Program-made: the position numbers and the translations under genes
The notes under the pieces: generated by a model
Databases searched by the model: none
What the model saw: only the letters and a program-made list of their open reading frames with translations
What the model was told of the DNA's origin: nothing
Assembly: GCA_011056555.1 (NCBI GenBank)
Contig: DSEQ01000001.1
Span: 1 to 64,000 of the forward strand
Source: Candidatus Zixiibacteriota bacterium
Lineage (GTDB): Bacteria; Zixibacteria; MSB-5A5; JAABVY01
DNA length: 64,000 nt
Direction of reading: 5' to 3'
Part shown: positions 29,537-61,766 of the stretch, piece after piece
How positions within the stretch are numbered: the first letter of the stretch is position 1
How the letters are laid out: every line of letters starts with the position of its first letter

Positions 29537-31269
<1,733 letters not shown>

Positions 31270-31342
31270 TAGCCCTACGGGGAATCGAACCCCGGTTTGA
31301 TGGCTGAGAACCACCCGTCCTAGTCCACTAGACGATAGGGCC
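31270..31342 (-). tRNA. tRNA-Glu (anticodon CUC)
   Basis: The minus strand folds into a full cloverleaf. The acceptor GGCCCTA pairs with TAGGGCT (G-U at the end). The D arm is GTCT...GGAC. The anticodon stem GGTGG/CCATC has loop TTCTCAG, giving anticodon CTC. The T arm is CGGGG-TTCGAAT-CCCCG. The discriminator base is A and CCA is not encoded. It reads GAG codons. Confidence 0.93.
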
Positions 31343-58101: not shown

Positions 58102-59097
58102 TTGACGAATTTATCTTTTTGTATAAATATGAAGTGTGAATTGATTATTAAAAGCTACATAAACTCACATTGGATTAGGGAAATGAAGAAAAGGATTTCT
58201 CCTGCAGCCATACAATGTTTAAAGGAAGCTTTGACTTATATTTTTTGGTATAAGCGTGATCTAAGAAGCTTTTTGTATCATGCTTTAGAGTCATCAAATA
58301 TTCTGGCTAGAATAAATTGGGATGATCTAAAGCGAAATATTGCCCATGATTTGGTTAATGAGCTAATGAAGGATCAGGAAAAATATCAAACAGAAATCAT
58401 TGATTTGATGAATGAAGTTTGCCAAATGGAGGATTTTTCTCACCTGCGTCGCCTAGATGATGGAAAGAAGAAAGAAACCCTTGCAAAAGAAGCTGTATCC
58501 GCTCTCAGAAAGCAGTTTGTTGGACATCAACAACTCGTAGAGGAAATAAAGCAAATGGAACTACGAAGAGAAAGGGCTCATAAAAAATCAATGCAGATTC
58601 AGGCCGTACAACAAAAGCTCAATGAGCTATCAAGTGAATATGCTTTATTACTAGGATCAACTGAACCAAATAAAAGGGGATATAGATTAGAGAAAATATT
58701 GCGAGAGCTATTCGAAATATTTGATTTGGATCCAAAAGCTTCATTTAAAATAACTGGTGAACAGATAGATGGGGCCTTCTCCTTTGAAATGACAGACTAT
58801 CTACTGGAAGCAAAATGGCAAAAAAGTCCCGTTGCTGCAAGAGACATGGACAGCCTTACGGGAAAATTATCTAGAAAGCTTGACAATACATTGGGACTAT
58901 TTATTTCAATTAATGGATTCGCTCAAGATTCTGTAAAAGCAGTTTCATCTGGCAGACGCCTGATAATATTGATGGATGGAAGCGATTTAATGGCAGTTTT
59001 GGAAGCACGCATAGATTTAGGCCAGTTATTACTCCGCAAAAGACGGAACGCTGCCGAGACTGGCAATATTTACCTTCGTTTTCATGAATTTCTATAA
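58102..59097 (+). CDS. PD-(D/E)xK restriction-endonuclease-like protein
   Basis: This protein of up to 331 residues starts at TTG (58102) with AGGA upstream, or at ATG 58183 (MKKRISPAA). It has an N-terminal helical domain with ALTYIFWYKRDLRSFL, a coiled coil around residues 150-185 and a nuclease domain. In the latter, EQIDGAFSFE...YLLEAKW gives the D...ExK core. The end RKRRNAAETGNIYL is conserved in similar proteins as I recall them. It probably cuts DNA in a defence setting. The gene is AT-rich and lies behind direct repeats, which suggests transfer. Confidence 0.75.
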   Translation: MTNLSFCINMKCELIIKSYINSHWIREMKKRISPAAIQCLKEALTYIFWYKRDLRSFLYHALESSNILARINWDDLKRNIAHDLVNELMKDQEKYQTEIIDLMNEVCQMEDFSHLRRLDDGKKKETLAKEAVSALRKQFVGHQQLVEEIKQMELRRERAHKKSMQIQAVQQKLNELSSEYALLLGSTEPNKRGYRLEKILRELFEIFDLDPKASFKITGEQIDGAFSFEMTDYLLEAKWQKSPVAARDMDSLTGKLSRKLDNTLGLFISINGFAQDSVKAVSSGRRLIILMDGSDLMAVLEARIDLGQLLLRKRRNAAETGNIYLRFHEFL

Positions 59098-59187
59098 TGG
59101 TTTTCATATGGACGCCTTAGTTTATTCTTACTTATAAATGCATAGTCATAAGCACATAAGGTTTTAATTAATTGCTTGGGAGGGAAA

Positions 59188-60045
59188 ATGAATTTTACCG
59201 ACTTGGAGGAGAACAAGAAGCAATTTCGCATTCTATTAAGCGGAATGATGGAAATGCCCGAATCCATAAAAGGAACCAAAATAGAGGGCGATTACCTAAA
59301 ATTGCAGGATGCTGAAAGTATATATAAAAAAACAATTAATCATTGTATTTCCATTTATCATCTTATTGGAGAATCAGAGGTACCCGAATTTGGAATTAGG
59401 ATCCTAGATTATTCATCAATAAGAATCCTCACACGTGCTGTTCATGAAGCCGTCTTAGTATTTTACTATTTATTCATTGATCCAACTACTATAGATGAGG
59501 AAAATTTTCGGTACTACATTTATTCTCTTAATGAAGCCGTAAAGCTTCTGGATATGCCATTTGAGACTATTGATAAAGAAATGAAAAAAGCATGGAGGGA
59601 TGATAAGAAGGATGTCATTGATAAATGCACGAAAACTCTAAAAGCCAATTCCCTCTATAAAGAATTAAAGGAAAAAAGCAAAAAGAAACTGCTTGATGGA
59701 AAAAGAAACTGGCGTCCTTCCTGGGCTGAAATGGGCGAAAAGGCGGGTTTGAGAGAATTACATGCTAAGTGGAATTACTCCTTATTATGCGGGGATGCAC
59801 ATTCTTCAAGTTTTAGTTTACTTCAGGTTAGAGGAATTCAATCGTTGGTTGATAGGCATTTCAGCGTTGTTGCAGATTTGCAGGTCTTAATGATATTAAT
59901 GACCAAGCAGATAAAATTTTACTCTCGTGTGTTCAATCCGGCTACTAAATTTTTGGAATCCAAGGAAAACAAAGAGCTTAGAAATGTAATGGAAATATGG
60001 GACTACATCGGAAGCGAGGAAATCGCCAAACCAGTGAGGGATTAA
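59188..60045 (+). CDS. DUF5677-like helical protein
   Basis: The track start at 59176 is TTG; the ATG at 59188 follows GGGAGGG. The 285-residue product is all helical, with SSIRILTRAVHEAVLVFYYLF at about residues 80-100 and YSLLCGDAHSSSFS near 205, a pattern like DUF5677 proteins. It is lysine-rich and AT-rich like the preceding nuclease gene and lies 90 nt behind it. The pair seems one acquired unit. The function is unknown. Confidence 0.55.
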   Translation: MNFTDLEENKKQFRILLSGMMEMPESIKGTKIEGDYLKLQDAESIYKKTINHCISIYHLIGESEVPEFGIRILDYSSIRILTRAVHEAVLVFYYLFIDPTTIDEENFRYYIYSLNEAVKLLDMPFETIDKEMKKAWRDDKKDVIDKCTKTLKANSLYKELKEKSKKKLLDGKRNWRPSWAEMGEKAGLRELHAKWNYSLLCGDAHSSSFSLLQVRGIQSLVDRHFSVVADLQVLMILMTKQIKFYSRVFNPATKFLESKENKELRNVMEIWDYIGSEEIAKPVRD

Positions 60046-60125: not shown

Positions 60126-61511
60126 CTACCGCAATATCTTCGAGATAAACTCCTCTACTTCGGGGACGCCGCCCTGCCAGATTAAATAGCCGTCGAAGGG
60201 TTCGCGTTCGGTGATCTCGTCGTTGATCGGTGTCAGCATCATCTTGCGGACCTCCTCACGCTCGGTGGTGTGCGCCAGAACCCATCCCAGCTTGATATAG
60301 GCCACCTCGGGCAGCATGTTCTCCATTGGCATGATACCGATGTCCAGGAGATCGCGTCCGGTGTCGTAAACATACATCTGCACATAACCCCATAAGGTCT
60401 GCACAGTCATGACAACCTGCACGCCCTTCTCAACCGCCTTGCGGATCGGCTCGTACAAGGGCTTGTTCACATGCCCCAGGCCGGTGCCGGCAATCACTAT
60501 TCCCTTGTAGCCGTTGTCCACCAGGGATTCAATAATATCCGGACGCATGTTGGGGTAGTAGTACACGATCGAAACCATCTCCTCGAAAACAGCATCGATC
60601 TTCGGCTTGCGGTTCATGTCGCGGCGCTTGTAATCCTTCTTGATCGGCGTGACCTTCTCCGGCGTAACCATAGCAATCGGGATATCCCCCAGGGTGCGGA
60701 AGGTGGAACGATACGAGGAATGCATCTTGCGCACACGGGTGCCCTTGTGCAGAAGATTGTACTGATCGGAGGTGGGGCCGAACATACATACGGTCACCTC
60801 GGCGATATCGGAATGCGCCGCGGTATGACAGGCACATTGCAGATTGAAGGCGGCATCCGAGGAGGGACGGTCGGATGATCTCTGCGAACCGACTATAACT
60901 ATCGGCACGGGCGAATCCTGCACCATGAATGATAATGCCGCGGCGGTGTGGTGCATGGCGTCGGTGCCATGGCCGATGACTATGCCGTCCACGCCGTTCT
61001 CGATCTCCTCGCCGATCTTTTTGGCTGTGAACATATATTGCTCCGGGCCCATATTCTCGGAGAAGACTCCGTAAAGCTTCTCGGTTTTGAGATTGCAGAT
61101 GTCCGCCAGCTCCGGCACCGCGCCGTAAAGCTCGCCCGGGGTGAAGGCGGGTATAACCGCGCCGGTACGATAGTCCAGACGCGAGGCGATAGTCCCGCCG
61201 GTACCTAATAAGGTAACATTGGGCTTGGCCGGATCACGCGGGAACTCCGACTCGGGAATCTTGTAGTGTGCTTCCTTGTGGCCGATCTCCCGGATGTTTT
61301 GAATATTCTCGGCCAGCACACCGACATTGTAACCGTTGGACATCTTCAAAACCAGGTGACAATCGTCGGCAGTCTCCGAGCGCGGGAGTATCACACCGGC
61401 AAAAACTCCCTTGGTCGTTTCCACCTCGACATCGGACCAGACATAGACATTGAAATTCTTCAGAACCGAAAGGGCCGGGCCGCGGTAGCCCTTGTATTTA
61501 TCATCAGCCAT
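60126..61511 (-). CDS. gatD: Glu-tRNA(Gln) amidotransferase subunit D, archaeal type
   Basis: GatD releases ammonia from glutamine or asparagine for the GatE-catalysed conversion of Glu-tRNA(Gln). The 461-residue product has an N-terminal beta domain of about 80 residues that is special to GatD and absent from L-asparaginases. An asparaginase fold follows with LLGTGGTIASR (nucleophile Thr) at about 100-110 and GHGTDAMHHTA with the second Thr-Asp pair. GatE is not in the window. GAGGTG lies 7 nt before the ATG. A strong hairpin with T-tract lies 66 nt upstream. Bacteria normally use GatCAB. Confidence 0.88.
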   Translation of the reverse strand: MADDKYKGYRGPALSVLKNFNVYVWSDVEVETTKGVFAGVILPRSETADDCHLVLKMSNGYNVGVLAENIQNIREIGHKEAHYKIPESEFPRDPAKPNVTLLGTGGTIASRLDYRTGAVIPAFTPGELYGAVPELADICNLKTEKLYGVFSENMGPEQYMFTAKKIGEEIENGVDGIVIGHGTDAMHHTAAALSFMVQDSPVPIVIVGSQRSSDRPSSDAAFNLQCACHTAAHSDIAEVTVCMFGPTSDQYNLLHKGTRVRKMHSSYRSTFRTLGDIPIAMVTPEKVTPIKKDYKRRDMNRKPKIDAVFEEMVSIVYYYPNMRPDIIESLVDNGYKGIVIAGTGLGHVNKPLYEPIRKAVEKGVQVVMTVQTLWGYVQMYVYDTGRDLLDIGIMPMENMLPEVAYIKLGWVLAHTTEREEVRKMMLTPINDEITEREPFDGYLIWQGGVPEVEEFISKILR

Positions 61512-61577: not shown

Positions 61578-61622
61578 AAAAAAAATATCCGGACTGGTCC
61601 GAGGGCTCGGACTAATCCGGAT
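61578..61622 (-). terminator. Strong intrinsic terminator between dtxR and gatD
   Basis: On the minus strand ATCCGGA-tta-GTCCGA-gccc-TCGGAC-cag-TCCGGAT is followed by A and TTTTTTTT. The stem has 13 pairs with one symmetrical inner loop. It lies about 150 nt downstream of a promoter and 66 nt before gatD. It may end a short RNA or act as an attenuator of gatD. Confidence 0.85.
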
Positions 61623-61766
61623 GAGATGGCAGAAACAAAAGTAAGAGGTCATAATGGCACTTATGCCATGCATGCTTTTCTTTTATTTTCAATCTTTCTT
61701 TATTTTCGATCTTTATAATCTAAAACCAAAAATCTCCTTAATAGTTCTCAATATTTCCCTTAGACA
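61578..61766 (-). ncRNA. Candidate small RNA or gatD leader
   Basis: A promoter (61800-61773) and a strong terminator (61622-61578) define a possible transcript of about 190 nt. It is A-rich in its first part and contains a second hairpin (ATGGCA-taa-GTGCCAT). A 40-codon frame inside crosses the terminator and is not credible. It is either an independent small RNA or the leader of gatD. It matches no family I know. Confidence 0.35.

Follow-up and report, generated by a model that had tools for sequence, protein, structure and literature searches.

An archaeal-type GatD with a GatE partner in Zixibacteriota genomes that also encode GlnRS

Described amidotransferases and the identity of GatD

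The amidotransferase GatDE is described as restricted to archaea in reviews of 2021 (PMC8007984) and 2022 (PMC9499178), the second of which also states that no archaeon has GlnRS and that archaeal GatDE recognises the A1-U72 pair together with the D-loop of the tRNA. GatDE goes unmentioned in a survey of GluRS, GlnRS and GatCAB in bacteria (PMC3927822), and bacteria in which GlnRS, AsnRS and GatCAB occur together are known (Bdellovibrio, Deinococcus and Thermus; PMC4206432). A search of the open-licence literature, with subscription papers and database annotations outside its scope, found no report of a bacterial GatDE. NCBI's own models would already name the bacterial gatD and gatE genes considered here.

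The window analysed, a stretch of 64,000 nt, is part of a contig of 87,765 bases in a Zixibacteriota MAG (G000; 3.58 Mb, 94.65% complete), and the features discussed are listed in Table 1. The original prediction was that this bacterial genome carries an archaeal-type GatD with the GatD-specific N-terminal domain and both threonine motifs, and it was borne out in each respect. In profile searches the ORF protein scored 521 bits against the NCBIfam model TIGR02153 gatD_arch (cut-off 324) and 518 bits against PRK04183 (cut-off 310), whereas the type I asparaginase model asnASE_I gave 383 bits on the same protein, below both GatD models, so that assignment to the ordinary L-asparaginases does not hold. 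The protein has the Pfam domains GatD_N, Asparaginase and Asparaginase_C, the first of which is the feature that divides GatD from plain asparaginases. Among solved structures the best matches were 1zq1 and 2d6f, both chains of archaeal GatD (E about 1e-120), with an asparaginase in third place (E 4e-39). All of the catalytic residues (T107, T183, D184 and K262), including the two threonines, are present and invariant across 51 sequences (49 bacterial and 2 archaeal GatD), and identity to archaeal GatD is 47-49%. The ORF is a true GatD; type I L-asparaginases have its catalytic fold and threonine motifs in common but are without the GatD_N domain, score lower here and have no GatE partner.

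Table 1. Positions of gatD and of the other features discussed (window numbering unless a contig of G000 is named)
Feature	Position	Strand	Description
gatD	60126..61511	(-)	461 aa, ATG start; Glu-tRNA(Gln) amidotransferase subunit D (ammonia-releasing, asparaginase-like subunit)
GatD_N domain	61290..61436	(-)	residues 26-74; PF18195 50.9 bits, cut-off 25.7
Conserved non-coding block and terminator-like hairpin, before gatD	61589..61652	(-)	35 nt identical in three family-f1 genomes; hairpin then T-tract
TTGACA-TATATT pair	61800-61773		near the block ahead of gatD
Gene pair downstream of gatD	58102-60045	(+)	weak EAD8 match below cut-off, and a DUF5677 protein
tRNA-Glu(CUC)	31269-31342	(-)	G1-U72, A73
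gatE	G000:C17:75627-77513		TIGR00134 460 bits (cut-off 319.55); PRK04028 534 bits
glnS	G000:C17:28480-30051		full length; 758 bits
gatA-gatB	G000:C34:14000-19000 (L111)		directly between glutamine synthetase-like and purN-like genes (named from translations)

The GatE partner and the distribution of the pair

The original prediction had also described gatD as lacking an adjacent gatE. This is correct locally, as no gatE adjoins gatD within the window, but it does not hold for the genome as a whole, where gatE was identified by profile search on another contig (Table 1). The protein has a GatB_N domain (169 bits) and a GatB_Yqey domain (32.5 bits, cut-off 27), and its core invariant residues are common to the bacterial and archaeal proteins, which are 33-35% identical; in several bacterial members the tail domain falls below Pfam recognition. 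Of the genes for which a genome search had been proposed, gatE, gatA, gatB and glnS were looked for and all were recovered, glnS at full length, and the genome also has asnS and a single gltX. Because glnS, gatA/gatB and asnS are present as well, GatDE would add a route without replacing one.

Compared with archaeal GatDE (Methanothermobacter, 2d6f; Pyrococcus, 1zq1), the bacterial system has the same two subunits, domain order and catalytic residues, and the family models score over cut-off. It differs in its bacterial host, in the divergence of GatE, in having unlinked subunits in G000 and in the first base pair of tRNA-Gln (see below). The absence of GlnRS that marks all archaea (PMC9499178), a feature of archaeal distribution that lies outside the definition of the enzyme, does not apply to G000. 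The GatCAB of Bdellovibrio, Deinococcus and Thermus is likewise an amidotransferase for the same kind of reaction kept beside both direct synthetases, but its amidase subunit GatA is unrelated to GatD and it is tied to Asp-tRNA(Asn) in those hosts (PMC4206432), whereas here GatDE comes on top of gatA/gatB.

Distribution was determined in 73 Zixibacteriota genomes that were well assembled and at least 93% complete. GatE was over cut-off in 46 of these and present as a clear partial gene in 4 more (50/73), the single-contig genomes with gatE including G023, G074, G075 and G101. For glnS the count over cut-off was 54/73, and a hand count from the two tables placed it (once as a partial gene) in 47 of the 50 GatE-positive genomes. 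Also by hand count, 25 of these 50 are without GatB, among them the single-contig G023, G074 and G075, and GatB occurs in all 13 genomes that lack both GatE and glnS. GatD relatives at 64-73% identity were found in Bacteroidota, one Latescibacteria MAG and one Myxococcota MAG; among 12 genomes from this relative search GatE was over cut-off in nine, and the count for glnS was also nine. The gatE gene stands directly 5′ of gatD in most relatives, also in Bacteroidota and Latescibacterota, and the two are apart in families f1 (that of the window), f2, f11 and f14. For G001 and G049, where GatD was found without GatE, the missing gene may be an assembly gap, because G001 consists of 440 contigs and gltX of G049 is broken into distant pieces. 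GatDE is a real and widespread bacterial system that coexists with GlnRS.

The idea that GatDE replaces GlnRS was rejected, since so many GatE-positive genomes keep glnS, and among the genomes examined none was shown to rely on GatDE alone. G010 and G024 are without glnS but possess GatCAB; the contig of G025 ends within glnS; and for G064, a Bacteroidales MAG with GatDE and no match to glnS or GatB, the portion read, about half of the MAG, contained just six tRNA genes, a completeness too low to settle the case. A positive association between GatDE and GlnS (Fisher p about 4e-6) was lost on phylogenetic pairing, which limits the claim to a lack of mutual exclusion. On the GluRS tree, gains and losses of GatDE had no significant tie to GlnS, and GlnS and GatB tended to swap, with few independent pairs.

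Strong purifying selection acts on both proteins, with a pairwise dN/dS of 0.02-0.08 for GatD and of 0.03-0.12 for GatE. The two are also co-inherited: their distance matrices correlated with r = 0.86, a value reached in 0/2000 permutations and to which shared species history contributes. A tree of GatD, which the original prediction had called for, was run with two archaeal sequences, and its cross-phylum groupings match those of the GatE tree, with Latescibacteria beside Zixibacteriota family f15 and some Bacteroidota, and Bacteroidales beside G086/G088, although some of these forks have a support of 85-95 only. Because both trees share these phylum-breaking groupings, they suggest that gatE and gatD moved together between bacterial phyla. 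With only two archaeal sequences in the comparison, an archaeal origin of the bacterial GatDE is no more than plausible; a plasmid search for further archaeal GatD with which to root the tree gave no match.

Substrate tRNA and the proposed role of GatDE

The two tRNA-Gln genes of G000 (UUG and CUG) are of bacterial type, with U1-A72 and G73, and neither has the A1-U72 pair, which is a property of the archaeal substrate and not a trait of the protein family. The same U1-A72 and G73 were found in 14/14 tRNA-Gln genes read, alike in genomes with and without GatDE, so that a bacterial GatDE would have to recognise another first pair or be indifferent to it. The gatE gene lies near gltX in G023 (1.6 kb) and G016 (3 kb), and near glnS in G031 and G046 (0.7-1 kb), a proximity that supports a putative link to Gln-tRNA formation; G074 and G101, both closed genomes, have gatE unlinked to those genes. 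GluRS has an Arg at the position of T. thermophilus R358 in every route class examined, and because this residue is found in all classes, mischarging of tRNA-Gln by GluRS cannot be read from the sequence. The GluRS column that separated the classes best, D174 versus E, was dropped as an indicator of discrimination: it was one chosen out of about 480, and the tree is confounded.

In many genomes of the class, and independently of the Gln-tRNA route, the gene for tRNA-Gln(CUG) is found near gltX (L107, L113, L114, L128, L131, L132, L136, L139-L141, L149 and L150). The tRNA-Glu(CUC) of the window (Table 1) may be of foreign origin: it resembles a Bacteroidales tRNA-Glu in L245 and differs from the tRNA-Glu(UUC) of G000, which has G1-C72 and G73.

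We consider it probable that gatD encodes the D subunit of a complete and selected GatDE, which would work as a bacterial Glu-tRNA(Gln) amidotransferase beside GlnRS on U1-A72 tRNA. The lone GluRS would load some glutamate onto tRNA-Gln, GatE would bind the resulting Glu-tRNA(Gln) and activate the glutamate with ATP, GatD would free ammonia from glutamine or asparagine at its T/T/D/K site, and this ammonia would turn Glu-tRNA(Gln) into Gln-tRNA(Gln). The route would run parallel to GlnRS, either as a second supply or to clear misacylated Glu-tRNA(Gln), provided that GatDE accepts the bacterial tRNA-Gln. Between the two options in the original prediction, use of GatDE by the lineage or a novel function of GatD, the evidence leans towards a real GatDE pair, whose use in this pathway is predicted from sequence. 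Counting against such a role, the Gln-tRNA product is already supplied because GlnRS is intact in the same genome; the low identity of GatE to its archaeal counterparts, its tail, unrecognised by Pfam in several members, and the difference between U1-A72 and the archaeal A1-U72 are further points against it. A more specific possibility, which we put forward only tentatively, is that the specificity of bacterial GatDE has shifted to tRNA-Gln with U1-A72 and that the enzyme partners GluRS in repair or proofreading where GlnRS is already available; if true, this would be a role that no GatDE is known to have.

That the gene came from archaeal DNA contaminating the MAG might be supposed from the description of GatDE as archaeal only (PMC9499178, PMC8007984), but this was refuted and can be given practically no credence: the closest named relative, an independent Ca. 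Zixiibacteriota MAG, carries a 97% identical GatD, the order gatD-DtxR-aminotransferase V is kept in three family-f1 genomes (G000, G001 and G003), gatE occurs throughout much of the phylum, closed chromosomes included, and identity to archaeal GatD is only 47-49%. The contig is not archaeal. It is also very improbable that gatD is a decaying or newly acquired gene without function, as its redundancy with GlnRS and the MAGs with GatD but no GatE could imply, since its dN/dS is low, its active site is invariant, it is found across many families of the phylum and the absence of gatE in those MAGs may itself be an assembly gap.

The asparaginase fold and motifs, and the separation of gatD from gatE in the window's genome, would fit a GatD acting alone as a cytoplasmic L-asparaginase or glutaminase to which GatE is incidental; this is very improbable given the GatD_N domain, the equivalog scores over cut-off and a GatE that co-occurs, adjoins in most relatives and co-evolves. 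A re-purposed GatDE, a genuine amidotransferase acting on Asp-tRNA(Asn), on a particular isoacceptor or in a non-translational use of Gln-tRNA, deserves more weight, though we still regard it as rather unlikely. GlnRS, AsnRS and often GatCAB are also present, GatDE does not track the loss of GlnRS while GlnRS and GatCAB tend to swap, and the GatE tail has diverged in many members, all of which would suit a new substrate; however, the core residues of GatE are conserved with the archaeal protein, the archaeal enzyme that has been characterised acts specifically on Glu-tRNA(Gln) (PMC9499178), and two lineages have gatE beside gltX or glnS.

A widespread and selected bacterial GatDE beside GlnRS contradicts the archaea-only statement of the 2021 and 2022 reviews, and models of tRNA-Gln evolution rest on the split between archaeal GatDE and GlnRS. 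It can now be tested whether GatDE is able to read a bacterial tRNA-Gln, whether one cell can accommodate both routes and for what reason it keeps them, and the question is raised of what use two routes to one product are to a single cell.

Other features around gatD

A search of the 4.7 kb that follow gatD in G003 (L117) did not find the gene pair seen downstream of gatD in the window, and for this pair PADLOC gave just a weak match of 15 bits to the candidate defence family PDC-S02. On the other side, the conserved block with its hairpin lies between the DtxR gene and gatD. An Rfam search of this block gave no family over threshold (best 19.5 bits against a gathering threshold of 50); it may represent a small RNA or a leader attenuator of gatD.
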